Part shown: piece by piece, positions 28,765-49,476 of the stretch
Position numbering within the stretch: position 1 is the first letter of the stretch
Layout: each line of letters opens with the position of its first letter
DNA from: Nitrospirota bacterium
Lineage (GTDB): Bacteria; Nitrospirota; Nitrospiria; Nitrospirales; Nitrospiraceae
Direction: 5' to 3'
Assembly (NCBI GenBank): GCA_004296885.1
Contig: SCVN01000019.1
Span: forward strand, 1-64,000
Length of the DNA: 64,000 nt
The notes under the pieces: model-generated
Databases searched by the model: none
Told to the model about the DNA's origin: nothing
Seen by the model: the letters and a program-made list of their open reading frames with translations, nothing else
Position numbers and translations under genes: made by a program

Positions 28765-30039
28765 ATGGCGACGAAACGTCCTCAATCCGTCCAGGCTTTG
28801 GAGCGGGCCTTGCGCGAAAAAACGCGCGAGGTCGATGTGCTGCACCGCATCAGCGAATCGATCAGCGCGACCTTGGATCTCGAAGTGGTGCTGCGGCACA
28901 TCGTCGAGATGGTCGTCGAGGTGACCAGGGCCGATGCCTGCCTGCTGTACCTGCTCTCCGAGAGTCGCGAGGAGTTGATTTTGCGGGCCTCAAAGAATCC
29001 CCACCCCAAACTGATCGGACGGATTACGATCGGTCTTGGTGAAGGGATTACCGGCTGGGTGGCGCGTGAGCGGACGCGCGTGGTGATTCCCAGCAACGCC
29101 AATGACGACCCCCGGTTCAAATTTTTTCATAATCTTCCGGAAGACCGGTATCAGGCCTTCGTGTCGGTGCCCATCCTGACCAAAAAGGAAGTGGTGGGTG
29201 TGATCAACGTGCAGCACAAGCGGCCGAAACGGTACCAGCCCGACGAGTTGGCGCTCTTGACCACGATTGCCAATCAGGTCGGCGGGGCGATCGAGAATGC
29301 CCGTCTTTATGCGGAAATGTCCCGCAAGGCGCTCCAGGTGGATACCCTCTCTCAAGTCTCTGAGACCGTGGCCTCGAACCGCTTGATCGAGGATGTCTTG
29401 CAGTTGATCGTCACGATGACCGCGCAGATGATGAACTCGAAGATCTGTTCGATCATGTTGCTGGAGCCGGCCTCAGGGGAGCTGCGCATCATGGCGACTC
29501 AGAGCCTGAGCGAACAGTACCGTCGGAAGCCCAGCCTGAAGTTGGGGCAAAGCATCAGCGGCCGCGCGGTACAGGAGCGCCGGTCCATCATCGTGCCGGA
29601 TGTCACCAAAGAACGGGACTACATGTATCCGGAGATGGCGCGAAGGGAAGGGCTCTGTTCCTTGCTCTCCGTACCCATGCTGATTCGAGATCGGGCGGTC
29701 GGCGTGATCAACAGCTATACCTCCGTCCCGCACGCCTTTACGTCCGAAGAGATCAAGGTTCTCCAGGCCATTGCTAATCAGGCGGCCATCGCAATCGAGA
29801 ACACCAAGCTGGTGGAAAAGTCTTTTGAAATGCAGGAGGCGCTCGAGGTGCGGAAGCTGGTGGAGCGAGCCAAGGGCAGTCTGATGCAGGCCAAGGGGAT
29901 ATCGGAGGAGGAGGCGTTCCGGCTGATGCAACGGCAAAGTATGGATACCCGCAAGTCCATGCGTGAGATCGCCGAGGCGGTGATCCTGGCCATCGGTATC
30001 GAGCGGCATGCCGGCAGCCGGGACTTCAATAGGCCTTGA
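28765..30039 (+). CDS. GAF-GAF-ANTAR transcription antitermination regulator
   Basis: 424 residues, soluble. A short coiled coil (about 8-22) leads to GAF1 (about 28-170; ITIGLGEGITGWVARERTR, YQAFVSVPILTKKEVVGVIN) and GAF2 (about 195-345; GQSISGRAVQERRSI, LLSVPMLIRDRAVGVIN). The C-terminal ANTAR domain (about 355-415) is recognised from the helix KLVERAKGSLMQAKGISEEE, AFRLMQRQSMDTRKSM and REIAEAVILA. ANTAR proteins bind paired RNA hairpins and suppress a downstream terminator. There is no receiver or kinase domain, so the signal probably enters through a GAF ligand. It is followed by nadE, amt, glnB, glnD and glnA, so a nitrogen-control role is likely. A candidate target is at 37945..38011. 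Confidence 0.9.
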   Translation: MATKRPQSVQALERALREKTREVDVLHRISESISATLDLEVVLRHIVEMVVEVTRADACLLYLLSESREELILRASKNPHPKLIGRITIGLGEGITGWVARERTRVVIPSNANDDPRFKFFHNLPEDRYQAFVSVPILTKKEVVGVINVQHKRPKRYQPDELALLTTIANQVGGAIENARLYAEMSRKALQVDTLSQVSETVASNRLIEDVLQLIVTMTAQMMNSKICSIMLLEPASGELRIMATQSLSEQYRRKPSLKLGQSISGRAVQERRSIIVPDVTKERDYMYPEMARREGLCSLLSVPMLIRDRAVGVINSYTSVPHAFTSEEIKVLQAIANQAAIAIENTKLVEKSFEMQEALEVRKLVERAKGSLMQAKGISEEEAFRLMQRQSMDTRKSMREIAEAVILAIGIERHAGSRDFNRP

Positions 30040-30222: not shown

Positions 30223-32004
30223 TTGCGACGGTTTCGCATCGCCATGGTCCAGATGAATTCAATCGTCGGAGACCTGCCGGGGAATAGGCAGCGCATTACC
30301 GGGTGGCTGCGTGAAGCCCGAAAGGCCAAGGTCGATCTCGTTGTTTTCCCGGAATTGGCGATTACCGGCTATCCCCCTGAAGATTTGCTGCTGAATCCGA
30401 AGTTTCTGAGCGATACCAAGCGTGCGTTGCGGGAGGTTGTCAAGCACTGTCGTGGCCTGGCCGCCGTGGTGGGATGTGTCAGCGAAGGGGAGGTGCCTGG
30501 AACCCGGCCCGCGCCTCCCTTAGCGGTGGCCGTCGGAGCACAGGAAATCTGCAATGCTGCCGCCGTGATTGCGGACCGACGGCTGGTCATCTCTTATGGC
30601 AAGCGGTATTTGCCCAATTACGGGGTGTTCGACGAACGCCGGTACTTCCATCCTGGCCGACGCATTCCGGTGATCGTGCTGAACGGGACCCCCGTCGGGG
30701 TCAACATTTGCGAGGATATCTGGTTTCCGGATGGACCGACCCGCACCCAAGCGATGGCTGGCGCGGAAGTGATCGTGAACATCAACGCCTCGCCGTTTCA
30801 CGTGGGTAAGACCAAGCTGCGGGAGCAGATGCTGGCAACCCGTGCGAGGGAAAACGGGGTGATCGTTACCTACACCAACACCATCGGCGGGCAGGACGAG
30901 TTGGTATTCGATGGCAACAGCCTGGTCCTGGATCAAGGCGGCGAGGTGATTCTTCGCGGGAAGGCTTTCGAAGAGGACTTCCTGATTGCCGATCTAGATG
31001 TTGGAGCAGTGGCCCGTGCCCGCATGGGACAGGTCCGCCGAAAGTGGGCAGCCGGACGGTCCATGACCGACGTTGATCGGATCGTCGTCTCCGGTCTCTC
31101 TGCAGCGAGGAAGCGTGCGCCGATTGTGCCGGCGGAACCGGCTCCGCTCGATCCTTTGGAGGAAGTCTATCAGGCGCTGATTCTTGGAGTCCGGGACTAC
31201 GTACGAAAGAACGGGTTTGGCCAGGTGGTCATTGGGCTCAGCGGCGGGGTGGACTCGGCTCTTACGGCGGCGATTGCGGTGGATGCATTGGGCCCCAAAA
31301 ACGTGGTGGGTGTCTTCATGCCTTCTCCCTATACCTCCCGAGACAGTCGTGAGGATGTCGCCGAGCTGGCGGAGCGTCTGGCGATCAGAACCTGCACCAT
31401 CCCGATCACCAGAATGTTTCGGTCCTATCTGAGCTCCTTGGCTGCGTCGTTTGTCGGGCGGCGACCCGATACGACCGAGGAAAATCTGCAAGCCAGGATT
31501 CGCGGCAATCTGTTGATGGCCCTGTCGAATAAGTTCGGCTATCTCGTCCTGACCACAGGCAACAAGAGCGAGATGAGCGTGGGCTATGCGACACTCTATG
31601 GGGACATGGCTGGAGGGTTTGCGGTGATCAAAGACGTCCCGAAGACGATGGTCTATGACCTTGCCCGTTTGCGCAATCGTCGGGCATCAGCAGACGCGGT
31701 TATTCCCAAGCGGACCATCGAGCGGGCGCCGACCGCGGAGCTGGCGCCGGGGCAAAAGGACGAGGATTCCCTGCCTCCTTATGCCGTGCTGGACCCGATT
31801 CTCAAAGCCTATGTGGAAGAAGACAAGTCGGCGGAAGAGATCACCGCGATGGGGTTCGAGCCGGACACCGTCCGCCGGGTGATCCGGTTGGTGGATGGGA
31901 GCGAGTACAAGCGACGTCAGGCGCCGATCGGGATCAAGATCACGCATCGAGCCTTCGGCAAGGATCGCCGCATGCCGATCACGAATGGCTATCGAGGGCG
32001 TTAA
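30223..32004 (+). CDS. nadE: Glutamine-dependent NAD+ synthetase
   Basis: 593 residues from a TTG at 30223, chosen because homology begins there (RRFRIAMVQMNSIVGDLPG) and AGG lies 6 bases upstream. The frame is open back to an ATG at 30076, but those 49 residues are encoded by hairpins and a T9 run. The N-terminal glutaminase (nitrilase fold) has Glu in VVFPELAITGYPPEDLL, Lys in SYGKRYLPNYGVF and Cys in VNICEDIWFP. The C-terminal synthetase has IGLSGGVDSALTAAIAVDAL and TGNKSEMSVGYATLYGD. It makes NAD from deamido-NAD using glutamine nitrogen, which fits its place in a nitrogen operon. Confidence 0.94.
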   Translation: MRRFRIAMVQMNSIVGDLPGNRQRITGWLREARKAKVDLVVFPELAITGYPPEDLLLNPKFLSDTKRALREVVKHCRGLAAVVGCVSEGEVPGTRPAPPLAVAVGAQEICNAAAVIADRRLVISYGKRYLPNYGVFDERRYFHPGRRIPVIVLNGTPVGVNICEDIWFPDGPTRTQAMAGAEVIVNINASPFHVGKTKLREQMLATRARENGVIVTYTNTIGGQDELVFDGNSLVLDQGGEVILRGKAFEEDFLIADLDVGAVARARMGQVRRKWAAGRSMTDVDRIVVSGLSAARKRAPIVPAEPAPLDPLEEVYQALILGVRDYVRKNGFGQVVIGLSGGVDSALTAAIAVDALGPKNVVGVFMPSPYTSRDSREDVAELAERLAIRTCTIPITRMFRSYLSSLAASFVGRRPDTTEENLQARIRGNLLMALSNKFGYLVLTTGNKSEMSVGYATLYGDMAGGFAVIKDVPKTMVYDLARLRNRRASADAVIPKRTIERAPTAELAPGQKDEDSLPPYAVLDPILKAYVEEDKSAEEITAMGFEPDTVRRVIRLVDGSEYKRRQAPIGIKITHRAFGKDRRMPITNGYRGR

Positions 32005-32074
32005 CCTGGGACAAGAGCCGGATGGGCTTGGTCATGGTGACGGAATTCCTCGGCCAAGTCGGCAAGGAGGGGAC

Positions 32075-36488
<4,414 letters not shown>

Positions 36489-36512: not shown

Positions 36513-37922
36513 ATGAATCCCCGCGAGGTATTGGAGTTTGCCAAGAAGCACAAGGTGCAGATCGTGGATCTGAAGTTTGTGGATCTGATCGGGACGTGGC
36601 AGCATTTCAGCATTCCCGTCAACGAGTTGACCGAAGGCCTATTCAAAGACGGGTCCGGCCTGGATGGGTCGTCGATTCGCGGCTGGAAGGCTATCAATAA
36701 CAGCGACATGCTGGTGGTGCCTGATCCTGAAACGGCCTGCCTGGACCCCTTTTGCGCCGTGCCGACGTTGAGCCTGGTCGGCAACGTGGTTGATCCGATC
36801 ACGCGCGAAACGTATGACCGCGATCCCCGGTTCATCGCGCAGAAAGCGGAGAAACATCTGCAGGGCACCAAGATTGGCGACATCTCCTATTGGGGGCCGG
36901 AAGCCGAATTCTTCATTTTCGATCACGCCCGCTACGATCAGACGAGCCACAGCGGCTACTACTTCATCGATTCGGACGAAGGCGTCTGGAACATGGGGCA
37001 GGAGGGCGTGAATCTGGGCGGCAAGATCCGTCACAAGGAAGGGTACTTCCCGGTCCCGCCGACGGACACCCAACAGGACATCCGCAGCGAGATGATTCTG
37101 GAAATGGAACGGGCCGGCATCTCGATCGAGAAGCACCATCACGAAGTGGCGACGGCGGGACAAGCCGAAATCGATATCCGGTTCGACTCGCTGGTTCGGA
37201 CGGCCGACAAGATGATGATGTACAAGTATATCGTCAAGAACGTGGCGCGGCGGCATGGCAAGACCGTGACCTTCATGCCCAAGCCGTTGTTCGGCGACAA
37301 CGGCTCCGGCATGCACACGCACCAGAGCATCTGGAAAGACGGCAAGCCTCTGTTCGCCGGGAAAGAGTATGCGGGCGTATCGCAGCTCTGCCTGAACTAT
37401 ATCGGCGGCATTCTGAAGCACGCGCCGGCGTTGGCCGCCTTCACGAACCCGACGACGAATTCCTATAAGCGACTCACGCCGGGGTTTGAAGCGCCGGTGT
37501 TGCTGGCCTACTCCAGCCGCAACCGGTCGGCGGGAATCCGCATTCCCATGTATTCGCCGAGTCCCAAGGCAAAACGGATCGAGGTGCGATTCCCGGATCC
37601 CGGCGCCAATCCGTACCTCGCCTTCGCGGCGATGCTCATGGCGGGTCTGGACGGGATTGAAAACAAGATCAACCCGGGTGAACCGGCCGAGAAGGACCTC
37701 TACGATCTCGAAGCCAAGGAGGCCTCCAAGATTCGGACCATGCCGGGCAGCCTGGACGAAGCGCTCAATCATCTCGAGAAGGACCATCAGTTCCTTCTGA
37801 AGGGCGGGGTGTTCAGCGAGGATTTGATCGAGGCCTGGATCGGCTACAAGCGGACGAAAGAGGTCGATACCATGCGGCTGCGGCCGCATCCCTACGAGTT
37901 CTTTCTCTACTATGATGTATAG
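36513..37922 (+). CDS. glnA: Glutamine synthetase, type I
   Basis: 469 residues, dodecameric GSI type. Makes glutamine from glutamate, ammonium and ATP. Signatures are [54 protein letters not shown] and [17 protein letters not shown]. The adenylylation tyrosine is exactly Tyr397 (EKDLYDLE), so control by the GlnE-like proteins encoded at 52328..56382 is plausible. GAAAGGAGG precedes the ATG. Confidence 0.97.
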
Positions 37923-37944
37923 AGGGTGAGGTCAGGCAGTCGGG

Positions 37945-38011
37945 GCCGGCAATGGCGCCGGCTTCGGCTGCCGAATCAACGTATGGGAGCAGCCCGACAG
38001 TGTTGTTGGGC
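37945..38011 (+). ncRNA. Candidate ANTAR-responsive tandem hairpins in the glnA-activator spacer
   Basis: Two hairpins, each with a six-base loop. Hairpin 1: GCCGGC (37945..37950), loop AATGGC, GCCGGC (37957..37962). Hairpin 2: GCCCGAC (37992..37998), loop AGTGTT, GTTGGGC (38005..38011) with one G-U pair. Both loops have A at position 1 and G at position 4, the published recognition rule for ANTAR antiterminators. The 29-base linker holds a small TTCGG/CCGAA stem. A large terminator follows at 38024 and the ANTAR protein is encoded 9 kb upstream. The match is by eye. Confidence 0.6.
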
Positions 38012-38023
38012 CGTTCGTCTGGC

Positions 38024-38090
38024 AAAGGCGCCAGCTCTGCCGGGAAGAGAGAGACAAGCTCTTTCTGGCAGCATGCTGGCGCCTTTCTCA
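38024..38090 (+). terminator. Large terminator hairpin after glnA
   Basis: AAAGGCGCCAGC (38024..38035) pairs with GCTGGCGCCTTT (38075..38086); inside, CTGCC pairs with GGCAG and AAGAG with CTCTT. The tail is TTTCTCATTAT. The 3' arm can also pair with GGCGCCGGC inside ANTAR hairpin 1 (37955..37962 region), so the two structures could be mutually exclusive. It separates glnA from the sigma-54 activator gene. Confidence 0.75.
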
Positions 38091-38122
38091 TTATGTGGTA
38101 TTGGCTGGTGAACTGATCGGGC

Positions 38123-39358
38123 ATGGGCAACATGGCGCCGGTGACGGATTTGGACGAGAGCCGATCGAGCGAGGAGTGCGAGGTCTTGGAAGCCGTGGCG
38201 GCTGCCTTGGCCGACTCCGGGCCTGTGCCGCAACGGCTTGAACGGGCCATCCAATTGGTTGACGAACGTTTGCGGGTGGTGCGGAGCCGGTTGGCGGGGG
38301 TGGAGCCGGCAGGGGAGGCATCCCGTCATCGCGCTGCAGCGGGGCGGAACTCCGGTTTACTAGCGAGTCTGGTGGGCCAGAGCGAGGCCATGCGCGAGGT
38401 CTATGAAGCAATTCGTCGCGTGAGCGGCAGCCAGGCAACGGTCTTGCTGCGGGGGGAGAGCGGCACCGGCAAGGAGCTGGTGGCGAAGGCCATCCATGTG
38501 CAAGGAATCAGGGCGAGAGGTCCGTTCATTCGTCTGCACTGCGCGGCCGTGACCGAGAGTCTCTTGGAGAGCGAGCTGTTCGGGCACGAACGGGGGGCCT
38601 TTACCGGAGCCGTGGACCAGCGCAAGGGGCGGTTCGAGTTGGCGGATGGCGGCACCTTGTTTCTGGACGAAGTGGGGGATATTCCGCCCTCCGTGCAGGT
38701 GAAGTTGCTGCGAGTATTGCAGGACAAGTGTTTCGAACGGGTGGGGGGGAGCAGGCTGCTGTCGGTGGATGTCCGGCTGATTTCGGCCACCCACCGCGAC
38801 CTGGAGGCGATGGTGCGGGCTGGGACGTTCCGGGAGGACCTCTATTACCGGCTGAACGTCGTGCCGGTGACGCTTCCCCCGTTGCGAGAACGGATAGGCG
38901 ATATTCCTCTATTGATCGATCATTTTCTGGATCGCTTCAACCGAGAGAACGGCCGCCACGTTCGCCTGGGACGGGATCTGATGGCGTTGATGACCCAGTA
39001 TGAATGGCCGGGTAACGTCCGGGAGTTGCAAAACTGCGTGGAGCGGTTGGTGGTGATGACGGAGCCCCGCGCCGATCTCGTAACGCTCGACTCCGTGCCA
39101 TCCTCGCTTCGAGGCTACTTTGCCGACATGGAGCATGTCACCGGAGTGGGAAGAGAGAAAACGGTTCAGGGTCATTCGATCAGGAAGGGACTGGATGAGA
39201 GCATCCAGGGCCTGGAGCGTCAGCGGCTCCTGGATGCCCTGGAACGGGTGGGGTGGGTGCAGGCGCGCGCGGCGAGGGTGTTGCGGATTACGCCCAGGCA
39301 GGTGGCGTATAAGATAAAAAAATACGGAATCGTCGAAGCATCTCGGAACGAGCCCTAA
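38123..39358 (+). CDS. NifA-like sigma-54-dependent activator without a sensor domain
   Basis: 411 residues. The AAA+ domain (about 80-315) has Walker A GESGTGKE (111-118), the sigma-54 contact loop GAFTGA (158-163), GGTLFLDEVGDIPPSVQ and the arginine-finger region FREDLYYRLNVVPVTLPPL. The C-terminal Fis-type HTH (about 368-405) reads ALERVGWVQARAARVLRITP then RQVAYKIKKYG, strongly reminiscent of NifA. The N-terminal 80 residues are too short for a GAF or receiver domain, so activity is likely set by amount or a partner rather than by phosphorylation. No nif genes are in the window. The site at 43245 and promoter at 43335 are its best candidate target. Confidence 0.9.
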   Translation: MGNMAPVTDLDESRSSEECEVLEAVAAALADSGPVPQRLERAIQLVDERLRVVRSRLAGVEPAGEASRHRAAAGRNSGLLASLVGQSEAMREVYEAIRRVSGSQATVLLRGESGTGKELVAKAIHVQGIRARGPFIRLHCAAVTESLLESELFGHERGAFTGAVDQRKGRFELADGGTLFLDEVGDIPPSVQVKLLRVLQDKCFERVGGSRLLSVDVRLISATHRDLEAMVRAGTFREDLYYRLNVVPVTLPPLRERIGDIPLLIDHFLDRFNRENGRHVRLGRDLMALMTQYEWPGNVRELQNCVERLVVMTEPRADLVTLDSVPSSLRGYFADMEHVTGVGREKTVQGHSIRKGLDESIQGLERQRLLDALERVGWVQARAARVLRITPRQVAYKIKKYGIVEASRNEP

Positions 39359-39409
39359 CCAAGCAAGTCGGATGCACGTATGGCCTCGATGTCAGAGAAG
39401 GAGATAGCT

Positions 39410-40735
39410 ATGACACCACAGTCGCGGTCGCGCCGAGAAGTCAGTGCGCACATGGTCGACGTAAAGCAACCGTCCGCCGAAGCCTATCTCGAACGGACAG
39501 TTGAACGGGCGGTCGCCGCCGCGGTGTTGGAGGCGGCGGGACCGAGCCGGCGGCAGTTCCTGGCCGGCATGGGGGGCGCCGCATTGGCGGCAGTGATCGG
39601 CGAAGTGTTTCCCTTGGCCCAGCTCAAGGCATTCGCCGCCGATCCTGCGGGTAAGCCCGAGAAGAAAGATGTCAGCATCGGATTTATTCCGATCACCTGC
39701 GGCACGCCGATCATCATGGCGGAGCCGCTCGGGTTCTACAAAAAGCATGGTTTGAACGCGTCGGTCAAACGTGCGGCGGGCTGGGCCATGATCCGCGATT
39801 GGGCGGTGAACAAAGAGGTGGATGCGGCGCACATGCTCACCCCCATGCCGCTTGCCATGACGCTGGGAGCCGGGTCCATGCCGACCCCGATGTACATGCC
39901 CGCGGTGGAGAACATCAATGGGCAGGCCATCACTCTGCACATCAAGCACAAGGGCGTCAAAACAGCGGCCGACATGAAGGGATTCCGCTTCTGTGTGCCA
40001 TTTGATTTCTCCATGCATAATTACCTGCTCCGCTACTTCCTGGCGGAGGGAGGCGTCCACCCGGACAAGGACGTGCAGATTCGCATCGTGCCGCCTCCCG
40101 AAATGGTCGCGAACTTGAAAGCCGGCAACGTGGACGGATACCTGGGTCCGGACCCCTTCAATCAGCGGGCCGTGTATGAAAATGTCGGTTTTCTCTTCAT
40201 GCTTTCGCGGGAGATTTGGGATCGTCATCCTTGCTGCGCCTTTACGGTGACGAAGGACTTTGCCACGCAATACCCCAACACGTTTCACGCCATGTGGCGG
40301 GCAATCGTGGATGCGACGCACTATGCCTCCAATCCCGTCCACCGGAAGGAGATCGCAACCGCGATCGCTCCGACCAACTACCTGAATCAGCCGGTCACCG
40401 TCTTGGAACAGGTGCTGACCGGTACCTACGCCGACGGACTCGGCAACATCAAGAAGGTGCCGGAGCGAATCGACTTTGATCCCTATCCCTGGCACTCGAT
40501 GGCGGTCTGGATTCTGACCCAGATGAAGCGATGGGGGCATCTCAAGGGGGATGTGAACTATAAGGCGGTAGCCGAGCAGGTCTATCTGGCGGCAGACTGC
40601 GATCGCATTGCCAAAGAGCTGGGCTATCCCACTCATAAGGCGACATCCATGACCCATACCATCATGGGCAAGGCGTTCGATCCGAACCAGGCCGAGGCTT
40701 ACGTCAAAAGCTTCAAGATTCACAGCATGGCATGA
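39410..40735 (+). CDS. NrtA/CynA-type ABC transporter substrate-binding protein
   Basis: 441 residues from the ATG preceded by AAGGAG at a 6-base distance. A twin-arginine signal lies inside an unusually long N-terminal region (SRRQFLAGMGGAALAAVIG, about 46-64), so the protein is exported folded. The mature part is the nitrate/nitrite/bicarbonate/cyanate binding fold: VSIGFIPITCGTPIIMAEPL, LGFYKKHGL, MLTPMPLAMTLG and DGYLGPDPFNQRAV. With cyanase at the end of the operon, cyanate or nitrite are the likeliest substrates; sequence alone does not decide. Confidence 0.9.
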   Translation: MTPQSRSRREVSAHMVDVKQPSAEAYLERTVERAVAAAVLEAAGPSRRQFLAGMGGAALAAVIGEVFPLAQLKAFAADPAGKPEKKDVSIGFIPITCGTPIIMAEPLGFYKKHGLNASVKRAAGWAMIRDWAVNKEVDAAHMLTPMPLAMTLGAGSMPTPMYMPAVENINGQAITLHIKHKGVKTAADMKGFRFCVPFDFSMHNYLLRYFLAEGGVHPDKDVQIRIVPPPEMVANLKAGNVDGYLGPDPFNQRAVYENVGFLFMLSREIWDRHPCCAFTVTKDFATQYPNTFHAMWRAIVDATHYASNPVHRKEIATAIAPTNYLNQPVTVLEQVLTGTYADGLGNIKKVPERIDFDPYPWHSMAVWILTQMKRWGHLKGDVNYKAVAEQVYLAADCDRIAKELGYPTHKATSMTHTIMGKAFDPNQAEAYVKSFKIHSMA

Positions 40736-40783
40736 AAATGGCGTGGCTCGGCCGCCGCGTCGCGTACCTCTCGTATCGACACG

Positions 40784-40814
40784 ACCGGAGCATGCTGGGT
40801 GTCCGGTGTTTTTT
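40784..40814 (+). terminator. Partial terminator between nrtA- and nrtB-like genes
   Basis: ACCGGA (40784..40789) pairs with TCCGGT (40802..40807) around a 12-base loop, followed by GTTTTTT. It sits in a 151-base gap inside what is otherwise one operon. A leaky terminator here would give more binding protein than permease, a usual ratio for ABC importers. Confidence 0.65.
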
Positions 40815-40886
40815 GCATGCAACGAAATGGGGACGACCGCACCCAGCGCTCCTCGATTGAATGAGCGTCGAAGAAAAGAGGCAGGC

Positions 40887-41789
40887 ATGGCAAGATTGCA
40901 AGGGCAGGCGGGGAACTCAAAGGACGCGGTACTGATCTCCGTGTCGATGCTGGTCGTATTTGTAGCGGCCTGGCACCTCTTCACGCTGCGGCCTGCGTTT
41001 GATCCCGCAGGATTGACCGAAGACCAGCTTCACACGATGGAGTTCAATGGCGACATTATGCAGACCGCCGATGGGGGATACGCCTGGAATCCCGAGAAAG
41101 AAAAGGTGAAAGGGGTGCCCGGGCCTCTGGCGGTGCTGGAGAAGACCAGGACCGAATTGGCCGAGGCGTTTGTGAAGAAGGGCACGAATGATCACGGGAT
41201 CGCTTACCTGGTACTCTACACGGTGACCCGTTTCGGAGCCGGTTTTCTGGCGGCCTCGGTGGTGGCCATCACGCTCGGGATCCTGCTGGGACTCAACAAG
41301 GTGCTCTTTCAGGCGGTCAATCCCTTCATCCAGATACTCAAGCCGATTTCGCCGCTCGCCTGGATGCCGTTGTTGCTGTACACGGTGAAGGACCCGAAGT
41401 GGACGGCGGTGCTGGTTGTGTTCATGGCGGCGCTCTGGCCGACTCTGGCCACGACGGCGTTCGGGGTCAATTCCCTGCGTAAGGACTACTTGCACGTGGC
41501 GGCCATTCTTCAACTGTCTTGGGCCAAGCGGTTGTACAAGGTCATTCTTCCTGGGGCGGCGCCGACTATCGTCAACGGTCTGCGCATCTCGTTCGGCAGT
41601 GCGCTTGTGGCGGTCGTGCCGGCCGAAATGCTTCTGGGCGAGCTGGGAGTGGGCTATTTGAGTTGGATCGAATGGAACAACCTGGATATCGCCGGGGTGA
41701 TCTTTGCGATCTTGGTTGTGGGCGTCGTGGGAGTCATTCTGGATTCGGGGTTCAACAAGCTGGCGAGTCTCGTCACGTATCAGGAGTAA
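40887..41789 (+). CDS. NrtB/CynB-type ABC transporter permease
   Basis: 300 residues from the ATG after AGAGGCAGG; a frame open from 40743 crosses the terminator and adds nothing homologous. A first helix (ISVSMLVVFVAAWHLF) is followed by a periplasmic stretch and about five more helices. The permease EAA loop is visible near LHVAAILQLSWAKRLYKVIL and PGAAPTIVNGLRISFGSAL. It imports a nitrogen anion with the neighbouring binding protein and ATPase. Confidence 0.92.
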   Translation: MARLQGQAGNSKDAVLISVSMLVVFVAAWHLFTLRPAFDPAGLTEDQLHTMEFNGDIMQTADGGYAWNPEKEKVKGVPGPLAVLEKTRTELAEAFVKKGTNDHGIAYLVLYTVTRFGAGFLAASVVAITLGILLGLNKVLFQAVNPFIQILKPISPLAWMPLLLYTVKDPKWTAVLVVFMAALWPTLATTAFGVNSLRKDYLHVAAILQLSWAKRLYKVILPGAAPTIVNGLRISFGSALVAVVPAEMLLGELGVGYLSWIEWNNLDIAGVIFAILVVGVVGVILDSGFNKLASLVTYQE

Positions 41790-41792
41790 GCC

Positions 41793-42641
41793 ATGGCATT
41801 TCTGGAAATCGATCATGTCACCAAGTATTTTGCGAGCCAGTCGGGCAACGGTCGCGTCTGCATCTTCCGAGATGCGACGATCAAAATCGAGAAGGGCGAA
41901 TTCGTCACGGTGATCGGCCACTCCGGCTGCGGCAAGAGCACGTTGCTGAACATCATCGCGGGATTGGAAACCATGACGGAGGGCGGCATCATCCTGAACG
42001 GCAAAGAGGTCTCAGGCCCCGGGCTGGACCGCATGGTGGTCTTCCAGAACTTCTCGTTGATGCCGTGGATGACCGTGTTCGAAAACATCCGGCTGGCAGT
42101 GCGGGCGGCTTATCCGGATTGGGATCGTCAGAAGATTGCCGAGCACGTGCGTAAGTACATCGCATTGGTAGGGCTGACGGGCGCGGAAGACAAGCGGCCG
42201 ATAGCCCTGTCTGGCGGGATGAAGCAGCGGGTGGGGCTGGCGCGGGCATTCTCAATCGAACCCAAGGTGCTGTTGCTGGACGAGCCCTTCGCGCAAATCG
42301 ACGCCTTGACGAGAGGTGTCATCCAGGAGGAACTGGTCCAGATGTGGAACACGACCCGCAATACGGTTTTTATGGTGACCCACGATGTGGACGAGGCCAT
42401 TCTCCTTTCGGATCGGATCATGCTCATGACGAACGGCCCATCGGCGCGTATCGCGGAAATCGTGGACGTGACGATCCCGAGGCCGCGTTCCCGCGACTCG
42501 GTCATCGAACATCCCCACTATTACAAGTTGAGGAACCACATCATTCATTTTTTGGTCCGCCATGCGTCGCATGCGCCGGTCGCCGACGGGTCGGACTCAG
42601 AGGAGGCGAGCTCCGTCCCGCCGTTGGTCGTCCGCTTCTGA
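41793..42641 (+). CDS. NrtD/CynD-type ABC transporter ATPase
   Basis: 282 residues. Walker A GHSGCGKSTLLN, Q-loop VVFQNFSLMPWMTVFENI, signature LSGGMKQRVGLARAF, Walker [14 protein letters not shown], switch MVTHDVDEAILLSDRI. The tail RPRSRDSVIEHPHYYKLRNH is typical of nitrate/taurine-type ATPases. There is no fused binding domain, so it is the NrtD rather than the NrtC form. Three bases separate it from the permease. Confidence 0.93.
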   Translation: MAFLEIDHVTKYFASQSGNGRVCIFRDATIKIEKGEFVTVIGHSGCGKSTLLNIIAGLETMTEGGIILNGKEVSGPGLDRMVVFQNFSLMPWMTVFENIRLAVRAAYPDWDRQKIAEHVRKYIALVGLTGAEDKRPIALSGGMKQRVGLARAFSIEPKVLLLDEPFAQIDALTRGVIQEELVQMWNTTRNTVFMVTHDVDEAILLSDRIMLMTNGPSARIAEIVDVTIPRPRSRDSVIEHPHYYKLRNHIIHFLVRHASHAPVADGSDSEEASSVPPLVVRF

Positions 42642-42697: not shown

Positions 42698-43138
42698 ATG
42701 GAAGCGAAGAAAGCTCGAGATGTAATCAAGGCCAAGCGGTTGGCCAAGAAGATGACGATCGCCCAGGTGGCCAAGCTTGTGGGCAGGAACCCGACGTTCG
42801 TGGCGGCGGTGTTGAACGGCACCCATCGGCTGCCGCCGAAGGAGGCGGCGAAGATCGGGAAGGCCTTGGGGCTGGACAAAGTCACAACCGAATCTCTGTC
42901 GAAGTTTCCGGTCCGGACCGATTTCCCTAACACGACCGATCCCTTCAAGTATCGGTTGCTGGAGATTATCGGGGTTTACGGCGACTCTATGCGGGAACAG
43001 GCCAACGAAATGTTCGGCGATGGGATCATGAGCGCGATCGATTTTACGATCGATATGGATAAGGTCACTGGCAGCCACGGAGAAGCCCGGTGCAAGATCA
43101 CACTGAACGGGAAGTGGCTCGAATACAAGACCTTCTAA
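42698..43138 (+). CDS. cynS: Cyanate hydratase (cyanase)
   Basis: 146 residues. Converts cyanate and bicarbonate to ammonium and CO2. An N-terminal HTH-like part (MTIAQVAKLVGRNPTFVAAV) precedes the catalytic domain. Arg86, Glu89 (FKYRLLEIIG) and Ser112 (IMSAIDF) have exactly the spacing of the E. coli triad Arg96, Glu99, Ser122, shifted by ten. AGGAGGGAAGG is the ribosome-binding site. It follows the ABC importer, so uptake and hydrolysis are coupled. Confidence 0.96.
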   Translation: MEAKKARDVIKAKRLAKKMTIAQVAKLVGRNPTFVAAVLNGTHRLPPKEAAKIGKALGLDKVTTESLSKFPVRTDFPNTTDPFKYRLLEIIGVYGDSMREQANEMFGDGIMSAIDFTIDMDKVTGSHGEARCKITLNGKWLEYKTF

Positions 43139-43244: not shown

Positions 43245-43268
43245 ATTTTGTCAGACATCCGACAAAAT
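43245..43268 (+). promoter_or_regulatory. NifA-type upstream activator site (TGT-N10-ACA)
   Basis: A perfect inverted repeat ATTTTGTC-N8-GACAAAAT (43245..43252 and 43261..43268). It contains TGT-N10-ACA (43249..43264), the NifA-binding consensus. It lies about 85 bases upstream of the -24 element of the sigma-54 promoter, a normal enhancer distance. A second partial copy (TTGTCCGGAATG) adjoins it. Confidence 0.75.
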
Positions 43269-43334: not shown

Positions 43335-43350
43335 TGGCACTGAACTTGCT
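43335..43350 (+). promoter_or_regulatory. Sigma-54 promoter (-24/-12)
   Basis: TGGCAC (43335..43340), five bases, TTGCT (43346..43350): a full match to TGGCAC-N5-TTGCW. The expected start is near 43362, 55 bases before the small winged-helix gene. rpoN is encoded at 17868 and a sigma-54 activator at 38123. Confidence 0.88.
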
Positions 43351-43683: not shown

Positions 43684-44856
43684 ATGCCCGGTGAAGGCGC
43701 CGATCATACGGCTTGGCTGCTGATCGCCACGACATTGGCCATGCTGACCGTTCCCGGCGTGGCATTATTCTATGCTGGGATGGTGCGTCGAAAAAATGTT
43801 CTGAACACGTTGGCCTTGCCGCTGTTGGCCCTGGTGCTGGTGTCGCTCTGTTGGCTTGTCGGCGTCGGGGCGATGGATCTGGGGGCCAGGGGGCGCAGCA
43901 TGGCTGGCCTGGGGCTTGGGGGAACGCCCCTGCGGTATGTGTCTCTCGTCCTTTCCGGGGCATTGGCGCTTGCACTGGTGGCGGGCGGCATCGTCGAGCG
44001 GACCCGCTGTTCGTTCTTTCTCTTGTTTGGGTTCTGTTGGGTTCTGCTGGTCTACGGTCCGCTCGCGCATTCGCTGTGGGGGGATGGCTGGCTGGTTTCC
44101 ATAGGGAGCCTGGACTTTGCGGGCGGGGCGGTGGTGCATGTCAGCGCCGGCGTGACGGCTCTGGTCGCCGCGATCCTGATCGGGCCTCGCAAAGGGCATG
44201 GGCGAACGGAGATGCGGCCGAACAATCTGCCGCTCTCGGTCTGCGGTGCCGGTCTGATGTGGGTCGGCTGGTGCGGCTTTGCCTCAGGCCAGGGCATGAC
44301 CACCATGGGCACGGTAACAAGCGCCTTCGTGGCCATCCAGGCTTCCGCGGCCGCGGCCGCATTGGCTTGGACTGCGGTGGAATGGGTGCAACGGGAGAAA
44401 CCCACGGTCTTGGGAACGGTCAGCGGAGGCGTCGCCGGCCTTGTGGCCATCGCGCCGGCCGCCGGCTACGTCGGCCCTCTCTCGGCGCTGGTCATCGGAA
44501 TCGGGGCCGGTGGACTTTGCTACATGGTGGTGAACTTCGTGAAGCCGATTCTGGGCTACGACGATTCGTTGGATGTGTTCGGGATGCATGCGGTCGGCGG
44601 CACCTGGGGGATGATCGCGACGGGACTCTTTGCCTCTGCGGCGGTGAACCCGGACGGCAGCGACGGGCTCTTCTACGGCTACCCCTATCAGTTTTTTGTG
44701 CAATGTGTGGCTGTCCTGGCTGTCTGGGTCTTTGCCGGGGGGATGACCTATCTGCTGGTGAAGGGGCTGGGTGCTATTCTGTCCCCACGTGTGGACGAAG
44801 AGGCCGAAGTGATGGGACTGGATCTGACGCAGCATGGGGAAAAAGGATATTCGTAA
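43684..44856 (+). CDS. amt: Ammonium transporter Amt (second copy, shorter)
   Basis: 390 residues without a signal peptide, beginning GEGADHTAWLLIATTLAMLT. The Amt fold has GVALFYAGMVRRKNVLNTL, the first pore His in DFAGGAVVHVSAGVTALV and the second in DVFGMHAVGGTWG. The tail ends GLDLTQHGEKGYS. It is clearly more divergent than the other two copies, which resemble each other. Control by the sigma-54 promoter suggests expression under nitrogen limitation. Confidence 0.93.
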   Translation: MPGEGADHTAWLLIATTLAMLTVPGVALFYAGMVRRKNVLNTLALPLLALVLVSLCWLVGVGAMDLGARGRSMAGLGLGGTPLRYVSLVLSGALALALVAGGIVERTRCSFFLLFGFCWVLLVYGPLAHSLWGDGWLVSIGSLDFAGGAVVHVSAGVTALVAAILIGPRKGHGRTEMRPNNLPLSVCGAGLMWVGWCGFASGQGMTTMGTVTSAFVAIQASAAAAALAWTAVEWVQREKPTVLGTVSGGVAGLVAIAPAAGYVGPLSALVIGIGAGGLCYMVVNFVKPILGYDDSLDVFGMHAVGGTWGMIATGLFASAAVNPDGSDGLFYGYPYQFFVQCVAVLAVWVFAGGMTYLLVKGLGAILSPRVDEEAEVMGLDLTQHGEKGYS

Positions 44857-48100: not shown

Positions 48101-48153
48101 ACAAGACAGCGTAGGGGCGGTCGGCGAGGTCGGTGGGAGAAAGGGAGACGAGC

Positions 48154-49476
48154 ATGGCCTGGATGATGACGGTGTGGCGGCTGGCGGGGCTCATCTGCAT
48201 GGCCTGGATCGTGGGCGCGGAAGCGGTGTGGGCGGAGACGCAAGCCGTTCCGCTCAAAATTGACACGGGCGACACGGCCTGGGTGTTGGCCTCCTCGGCG
48301 CTGGTTCTGGCGATGATCGTGCCTGGGTTGGCCCTGTTCTATGGCGGGTTGGTGCGCAGCAAGAACGTGTTGGGCACCATCATGCACAGTTTCATCATCC
48401 TCTCCCTGGTTAGCATTTTGTGGATTCTGGTCGGCTATAGCTTGGCCTTCGGCCCGGACGTCAAGGGCCTTATCGGCGGATTGGACTGGATCGGATTGAA
48501 CGGCGTCGGCTTGGACCCCCATGCAACCTATGGCCCGACGATCCCCCATCAGGCCTTCATGGTGTTTCAAATGATGTTCGCGGCGATCACGCCGGCCTTG
48601 ATCACCGGGGCCTTTGCGGAGCGGATCAAGTTCAGCGCCTTGCTCCTGTTCTCGGCCCTCTGGTCTCTGCTCGTGTATTGTCCGATCGCGCATTGGCTGT
48701 GGGGCGGCGGCTGGCTGGGTCAGCTGGGGGCCTTGGATTTTGCCGGTGGGGCGGTCGTGCATATCAGTTCCGGCGCGGCGGCCCTGGTCTGTGCCTTCGT
48801 GCTCGGGCAACGCCACGGCTACGGCACCGATTACATGGCCCCGCACAGCCTCCCGTTCACGCTGCTGGGCACCGGGCTGCTCTGGTTCGGCTGGTTCGGG
48901 TTCAACGCCGGCAGCGCCCTGGGCGCTAACCAGGTGGCCGTGTCCGCCTTTCTGGCCACGCATACGGCGGCCACGGCCGGGGCCGCCGCCTGGATCTTGG
49001 TGGAATGGGTACACCGGGGGACGCCGACCGTCCTGGGGGTGGCCAGCGGCGCCGTGGCCGGCTTGGCGACGGTCACACCGGGAGCCGGCTATGTCGGGCC
49101 CTTTTCGGCCCTGCTGATCGGGCTGGTGGCCGGGGGGGTGAGTTACCTGGCCATCATGTGGAAGGGGAAGTTCGGATATGACGACTCTCTGGATGTCGTC
49201 GGCATTCACGGGGTGGGGGGTGTGCTTGGCGTGCTGGCCACGGGGCTGCTGGCGTCCAAGGCGGTGAATCCCGGCGGAGCCGACGGGTTGTTCTACGGCA
49301 ATCCTGGGTTCTTCGGCGTGCAGGTCGTGGCGGTCCTGGCCGTCGGCCTGTTTTCCTTGGCGATGACCTATCTGATCCTCAAACTCGTCAACCGGCTGGT
49401 CGGGTTGCGCGTGACTCACGAGGAGGAAGCGTTGGGGTTGGATCTCAGTCAGCACAACGAGCGGGCCTATTCGTGA
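48154..49476 (+). CDS. amt: Ammonium transporter Amt (third copy)
   Basis: 440 residues from the ATG after GGGAGAC. Signal peptide LICMAWIVGAEAVWA, then the Amt fold: GDTAWVLASSALVLAMIVPG, first pore His in FAGGAVVHISSGAAALV, second in DVVGIHGVGGVLG. It ends [13 protein letters not shown], the same PII-docking tail as the first copy. No PII gene adjoins it. Confidence 0.94.
   Translation: MAWMMTVWRLAGLICMAWIVGAEAVWAETQAVPLKIDTGDTAWVLASSALVLAMIVPGLALFYGGLVRSKNVLGTIMHSFIILSLVSILWILVGYSLAFGPDVKGLIGGLDWIGLNGVGLDPHATYGPTIPHQAFMVFQMMFAAITPALITGAFAERIKFSALLLFSALWSLLVYCPIAHWLWGGGWLGQLGALDFAGGAVVHISSGAAALVCAFVLGQRHGYGTDYMAPHSLPFTLLGTGLLWFGWFGFNAGSALGANQVAVSAFLATHTAATAGAAAWILVEWVHRGTPTVLGVASGAVAGLATVTPGAGYVGPFSALLIGLVAGGVSYLAIMWKGKFGYDDSLDVVGIHGVGGVLGVLATGLLASKAVNPGGADGLFYGNPGFFGVQVVAVLAVGLFSLAMTYLILKLVNRLVGLRVTHEEEALGLDLSQHNERAYS

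Follow-up and report, generated by a model that had tools for sequence, protein, structure and literature searches.

The window analysed here, that is, the whole stretch of 64,000 nt (positions 1 to 64,000 of contig SCVN01000019.1, assembly GCA_004296885.1, from a Nitrospirota bacterium of the Nitrospiraceae), carries a series of nitrogen genes on the forward strand, among them the gene for a GAF-GAF-ANTAR protein of 424 aa (28765–30039; two Pfam GAF domains and an ANTAR domain of 76.1 bits, with a cut-off of 27.3), which is the only ANTAR match in the whole genome. Closely packed between this gene and glnA are nadE, amt1, a P-II gene and glnD, the P-II gene (33424–33762) lying in the gap between amt and glnD and being matched to relatives. 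glnA itself (36513–37922; Pfam/NCBIfam) encodes a type I glutamine synthetase and is followed by the gene of a NifA/NtrC-family sigma-54 activator (38123–39358; Pfam Sigma54_activat with 239.9 bits and HTH_8; GAFTGA at residue 158). Both flanking genes, and the GAF-GAF-ANTAR gene about 8–9 kb upstream, had been correctly recognized in a first-pass annotation of this DNA.

A nitrate/cyanate-type ABC importer begins 22 nt past the activator gene (39380–42641; Pfam NMT1_2, BPD_transp_1 and ABC_tran) and consists of a substrate-binding protein (39380–40735), a permease (40743–41789) and an ATPase (41793–42641); among the NCBIfam models, an ntrB-like match falls below its cut-off and ntrCD matches lie above theirs. 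The importer is followed by cynS, encoding cyanase (42698–43138; TIGR00673, 126.5 bits over cut-off), and by amt2, encoding a second ammonium transporter (43684–44856; Pfam Ammonium_transp, 303.7 bits). Altogether, three ammonium transporter genes are found within 18 kb (32000–33388, 43684–44856 and 48118–49473), the third being 65% identical to the first.

Tandem hairpins and a terminator downstream of glnA

The spacer between glnA and the activator gene contains two adjacent hexaloop hairpins and an intrinsic terminator, all on the forward strand. The first hairpin of the pair, P1 (37992–38011; GCCCGAC-AGTGTT-GTTGGGC), has a 7-bp stem and the loop AGTGTT at 37999–38004, and is separated by a 7-nt linker (CGTTCGT, 38012–38018) from P2 (38019–38034; CTGGC-AAAGGC-GCCAG), which has a 5-bp stem and a loop at 38024–38029. 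Both loops begin with A and have G as their fourth base (A1/G4). The terminator (38024–38092, including the tail TTTCTCATT) overlaps P2, as its 5′ arm (38024–38035) is made of the P2 loop and the P2 3′ arm, AAAGGCGCCAGC, which is complementary to GCTGGCGCCTTT in the 3′ arm (38075–38086). The resulting hairpin, 38024–38086, has a predicted stability of −44.1 kcal/mol, in agreement with the large terminator that had been described downstream of the hairpins. At the sequence level, the site has all the features of an ANTAR target in its hairpins, A1/G4 loops, 7-nt linker and terminator overlap, and in the ANTAR protein of the same genome; the dual-hairpin form, which calls for hexanucleotide loops on stems of 3 bp or more, is present with 7 bp in P1 and 5 bp in P2, and both stems covary.

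The stretch with hairpins and terminator folds more stably than 200 of 200 shuffled versions (z −6.7). In folding calculations the terminator form reaches −60.7 kcal/mol, compared with −42.5 kcal/mol for the enforced antiterminator form, hence the default state should be OFF. The U-run is poor (TTTCTCATT), so that the terminator may leak, and it was not picked up by a simple scan for terminators. Folding also indicates that an A–U closing pair could form in the bare P1 RNA, leaving a tetraloop. Pairs of A1/G4 hairpins are weak evidence when taken alone, as three were counted in the window (stems of at least 5 bp, linkers of 3–30 nt), one of them elsewhere. No Rfam 15 model reached its gathering threshold anywhere in the window, and even with a relaxed E-value none matched near the site.

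The first-pass annotation had proposed an ANTAR antitermination switch at this place, built from a different pair of hairpins, namely hairpin 1 with loop AATGGC and hairpin 2 with loop AGTGTT. Both hairpins are present and both loops conform to A1/G4 in this genome; however, only hairpin 2 belongs to the conserved pair, as P1, and its partner is the previously missed hairpin at 38019–38034. The 29-nt linker and the lack of overlap with the terminator that had been ascribed to the site were consequently wrong, and with the textbook layout of P1 and P2, a 7-nt linker and canonical overlap, both anomalies vanish.

Conservation of the RNA and its distribution with the ANTAR protein

BLAST searches with the whole spacer across relatives yielded full-length matches only in congeners, the distant matches being fragmentary, hence the spacer after glnA was compared in 17 loci of relatives by anchoring on the gene and not on the spacer. 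The order of P1 hexaloop hairpin, P2 and a terminator overlapping P2 recurs in these spacers across genera, and the A1/G4 loop of P2 is kept in the glnA-downstream sites compared. When P1, P2, an overlapping terminator and a T-rich tail were demanded, 27 matches (14 with P1) were obtained in 1.2 Mb of related loci, as opposed to 1 and 0 in Markov-shuffled sequence. Across the alignment of 13 sites, standard pairs fill 97.9% of the pair cells (84.1% when shuffled), 17 cells are changed on both sides where 4.5 are expected, and pairing falls to 15–57% when the partners are slid against each other; the seed sites were partly selected for pairing, a bias that raises the percentage but does not favour double-sided changes. 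Columns A9, G12, A34 and G37 are invariant in the 13 sequences, which were picked partly by the A1/G4 rule; A1/G4 is also present in glnA spacers that were not selected, and G1 is found in P1 in a minority of further relatives. The covariance model of the aligned sites matches the 3.26-Mb genome once, at P1/P2 (model R1, 57.5 bits, E 1.2e-8), with 15 bits for the next best, and no further candidate ANTAR RNA in this genome has an E-value better than 8.

Hairpin 1 (37935–37972, forward strand; 16 bp, loop at 37951–37956, 12 nt past the glnA stop) is judged to lie outside the ANTAR target. That it pairs up with hairpin 2 for ANTAR recognition, and competes with the terminator 5′ arm for the 3′ arm, is suggested by the two A1/G4 loops in this genome and by a possible duplex with the 3′ arm of −19.8 kcal/mol. 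However, the true 5′ arm reaches −26.8 kcal/mol, and the hairpin 1 duplex is not conserved: the loop reads GATGGG in both congeners (G001 and G003), the stem is broken in G001 and other genera have no counterpart, so that the conservation of A1/G4 loops expected among relatives holds for P1 and P2 and fails for hairpin 1. Moreover, the covariance model gives the hairpin 1 version only 18 bits, and hairpin 1 is so stable by itself (−33.3 kcal/mol in folding) that a protein would hardly be needed. Hairpin 1 was hence rejected as P1, and its pairing with hairpin 2 appears very improbable. It has no T-run and still forms a hairpin in G003, though not in G001; perhaps it stabilizes the 3′ end of the glnA mRNA or is a small repeat.

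The ANTAR gene is orthologous throughout the taxonomic order, with 66–98% identity, and its distribution follows that of the RNA. Among 156 genomes of the family, each at least 80% complete and counted irrespective of shared descent, the ANTAR gene is present in 91 and the RNA in 76; 73 genomes have both, 3 the RNA only, 18 the protein only and 62 neither (Fisher p 4e-23). The three RNA-only genomes are all incomplete (at most 89%). Within genus g6, both are found in 11 genomes, one alone in 1 and 1, and neither in 60 (p 4e-11), which indicates that RNA and ANTAR protein are absent together; most of the 73 g6 genomes have neither the ANTAR gene nor RNA targets. The 18 ANTAR-only genomes, some of them incomplete, have no model match, and scans near the loci of several of them revealed no RNA site. 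Twelve belong to g10 (for example L251–L254), where the ANTAR protein is kept and no RNA of the P1/P2 type was detected; divergence of the RNA, or a new target of the ANTAR protein, could account for this.

A strong hairpin separating glnA from the next gene could also be an ordinary, constitutive terminator of the glnA operon, with the activator transcribed from its own promoter and the resemblance to P1/P2 being incidental. Such a terminator does not need P1, which lies upstream of it, yet the P1 stem shows compensatory changes and A1/G4 is kept across genera, and the RNA is lost together with the ANTAR gene. In addition, no sigma-70-like promoter was found in 37400–38300, a range that takes in the whole glnA–activator spacer, so that the transcript most likely arises by read-through from glnA. 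A constitutive terminator is hence improbable, hardly less so than the use of hairpin 1 as P1. An ANTAR transcription antitermination switch between glnA and the activator, as proposed in the first-pass annotation, is strongly supported by covariation, by the model search and by the way in which RNA and protein occur and are lost together, and we regard it as very probable.

The ANTAR domain can be aligned with those of EutV (6wsh), Rv1626 (1s8n) and NasR (4akk). RNA contacts of EutV have been published (PMC8934654), and 6 of the 11 contact residues are identical here (R363, K364, K370, E381, M393 and R396), 2 are conservative (R368 and F385), while Q389, D394 and S398 differ; EutV Y164, R168, N173 and R177 correspond to F, Q, D and S in the Nitrospirota protein.

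In relatives, the switch precedes a sigma-54 activator, a nitrate/cyanate-type binding protein, cynS, amt, amt2 or a formate/nitrite-type transporter. The model matches Candidatus Nitrospira defluvii (FP929003.1; G032) at 1302450–1302494 and 1309518–1309581, and Nitrospira moscoviensis (NZ_CP011801.1; G093) at 1188084–1188128 and 1195153–1195213, the 10-kb flanks of the named genomes mostly ending short of glnA. ANTAR-type matches also occur between the ANTAR gene and nadE (L077 3508, and weakly L091 1518–1572 and L093 15800–15857), and are perhaps a further target near the regulator gene.

The sites themselves vary in several ways. For the Enterococcus faecalis eut sites, Ramesh et al. (2012; PMC3369931) give P1–P2 linkers of 5–12 nt, a range that includes the 7 nt found here, whereas linkers of 17–36 nt occur in some relatives and exceed the tolerance of EutV. 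Linkers of at least 35 nt contain an extra hairpin (L061 9885–9957, L085 2405–2506, L100 3331–3403), and, since EutV is intolerant of long linkers, this additional helix may serve to keep P1 close to P2. Loops with G1 and retained G4 (GGCGGA, GGCGAA, GGTGCC and GATGTT) are found in hairpins at the P1 position, in most cases that of the second switch in a series (L131 1918, L132 13051, L136 2172, L080 6845, L256 12900), and are a possible variant of the A1 rule. Such series, with two ANTAR-type switches and two terminators ahead of one operon as a double gate, are often seen in genera without the activator, as after glnA in L067, L069, L077, L079, L080, L131, L132, L133, L136 and L256. In several of the activator-less genera, inspection by eye shows that the importer is preceded by both serial switches and that a TTGAC/TATA-type promoter lies immediately upstream of P1; sigma-70-like promoters of the form TTGAC...TATA/TACA, shortly ahead of P1, make independent leaders in L067, L069, L075, L077, L079 and L080. 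In L061, L085, L086, L087 and L100, short inverted repeats of the type GAGGCGATAGGC...GCCTATCGCCTC, reminiscent of mobile palindromic repeats, take up the spacer between glnA and P1.

The sigma-54 activator and the amt2 promoter

The activator comprises an AAA+ domain and a Fis-type HTH, with only 82 aa ahead of the AAA+ domain, and a Pfam domain search found no sensory domain in it. NCBIfam nifA is its best model, yet the score stays below the cut-off (457.7 versus 528.85 bits) and the match starts at profile position 140. As judged from its domains, the protein is thus NifA-like rather than NifA, since it falls short of the nifA cut-off and lacks the N-terminal GAF sensor. For a protein without a sensor domain, the simplest assumption is that its amount determines its activity.

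NifA systems (NCBIfam TIGR01817) combine an AAA+ domain, GAFTGA and a Fis-type HTH with a TGT-N10-ACA upstream activating sequence (UAS) and a −24/−12 promoter. These elements are shared here, the two DNA elements lying between cynS and amt2 on the forward strand: a sigma-54 promoter, TGGCACTGAACTTGCT, at 43335–43350, which is the sole zero-mismatch match in the window, and a NifA-type UAS, TGTCAGACATCCGACA, at 43249–43264. The UAS is part of a longer palindrome, TTTTGTC-N8-GACAAAATTG, that has a single match in the whole genome, and is kept upstream of amt2 in activator-carrying genomes. In contrast to NifA, the activator has no GAF sensor, scores below the cut-off and has amt2, not nif, as its presumed target.

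The promoter is found ahead of amt2 in all eight readable genomes that carry the activator (G000, G001, G003, G005, G010, G014, G016 and G022), with an exact UAS in seven and TGT-N10-GCA in G016, while promoter and UAS are found ahead of amt2 in none of eight activator-less genomes (G004, G007, G015, G019, G023, G025, G034 and G035). Two of the latter, G015 and G023, have an ANTAR switch directly ahead of amt2. With fixed margins, a split of 8/8 versus 0/8 arises by chance once in 12,870; however, two changes of the activator label suffice on the ANTAR tree, so that the split represents about two independent events and not eight. Sigma-54 promoter matches in G024:C29 and G173:C302 adjoin neither a UAS nor amt2 and were not counted.

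It could be argued that the ANTAR target is real but that the amt2 promoter answers to another activator such as NtrC. NtrC-driven sigma-54 control of amt is common in other bacteria, and these genomes probably encode further sigma-54 activators, one of which, in L165, is 42% identical. However, promoter and TGT-N10-ACA stand ahead of amt2 only where the activator is present, including the separately placed lineage G005, and the element is of the NifA type, NifA also being the nearest named model of the activator. Control by another activator is hence unlikely, albeit a more serious contender than the alternatives to the switch itself, and a relay from the NifA-like activator to amt2 via the sigma-54 promoter is probable. 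The link between RNA antitermination and a transcription activator, already put forward in the first-pass annotation, thereby gains independent support from the predicted promoter and UAS.

A relayed nitrogen circuit and its relation to known systems

From these sequence features, namely the motif, its covariation, the terminator overlap, the joint loss of protein and RNA, the gene order, the promoter and the UAS, we infer that the protein binds the RNA, which way the switch turns, that transcription reads through from glnA and that amt2 is activated, as follows. By default, RNA polymerase leaving glnA would be stopped as the terminator at 38024–38086 folds. The active GAF-GAF-ANTAR protein would bind the hexaloops of P1 and P2, and P2, being held as a hairpin, would prevent the terminator from forming, so that transcription from glnA could continue through the genes for the activator, the importer and cyanase. 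As the activator has no sensor domain of its own, its amount would be the signal; it would bind TGT-N10-ACA at 43249–43264 and open the sigma-54 promoter at 43335 for amt2. We assign a probability of roughly 0.6 to this relayed circuit as a whole, in which an RNA antiterminator sets the amount of a sensorless sigma-54 activator that passes the signal on to a distant amt promoter.

The switch belongs to the known type of ANTAR targets, and the new part is the wiring through the sensorless sigma-54 activator. In a cascade for nitrogen fixation, the Gnf system of Geobacter also unites an ANTAR antiterminator and a sigma-54 activator, but the order is reversed: there, the activator sits above the ANTAR system, whereas here the ANTAR switch sits above the activator. 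The eut leaders of E. faecalis with EutV likewise have two A1/G4 hexaloop hairpins with P2 overlapping an intrinsic terminator (PMC3369931; PMC8934654), and the EutV ANTAR domain has matching RNA-contact residues (PMC8934654). However, EutV carries a receiver phosphorylated by a kinase, in place of GAF-GAF in the same chain, and the eut targets differ from the sigma-54 activator and nitrate/cyanate-type importer found here. The NasR–nasF system of Klebsiella resembles the present one in its one-component ANTAR regulator, its nitrogen genes and antitermination at a leader terminator, but NasR senses nitrate by a NIT domain instead of two GAF domains, and the nasF site lies in a 5′ leader and not between two genes (PMC7496416). 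In Desulfotomaculum acetoxidans and Pelobacter carbinolicus, several ANTAR RNAs are predicted to govern nitrogen genes, among them those for transporters and glutamine synthetase; the multi-site regulons of Nitrospira relatives are comparable to these predictions, which concern a different phylum, and the sections of that paper used here mention no link to a sensorless sigma-54 activator (PMC3369931). No published ANTAR regulation in Nitrospira was found in the main texts of openly readable papers.

Nitrospira are main nitrite oxidizers, and some oxidize ammonia completely. The lone ANTAR protein has one RNA target here, and relatives, N. defluvii and N. moscoviensis among them, have several; this makes for a defined and testable regulon, which covers the uptake of ammonium, nitrite and cyanate. 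The sites also form a natural series (linkers of 5–36 nt, serial double switches and G1 loops) on which the spacing rules derived from EutV can be probed. One regulatory signal can be passed on directly by an RNA switch or through an added transcription activator; if the circuit is true, the same regulon would be wired either directly by RNA, with several amt genes having their own ANTAR switches in activator-less lineages, or via a DNA-binding relay.
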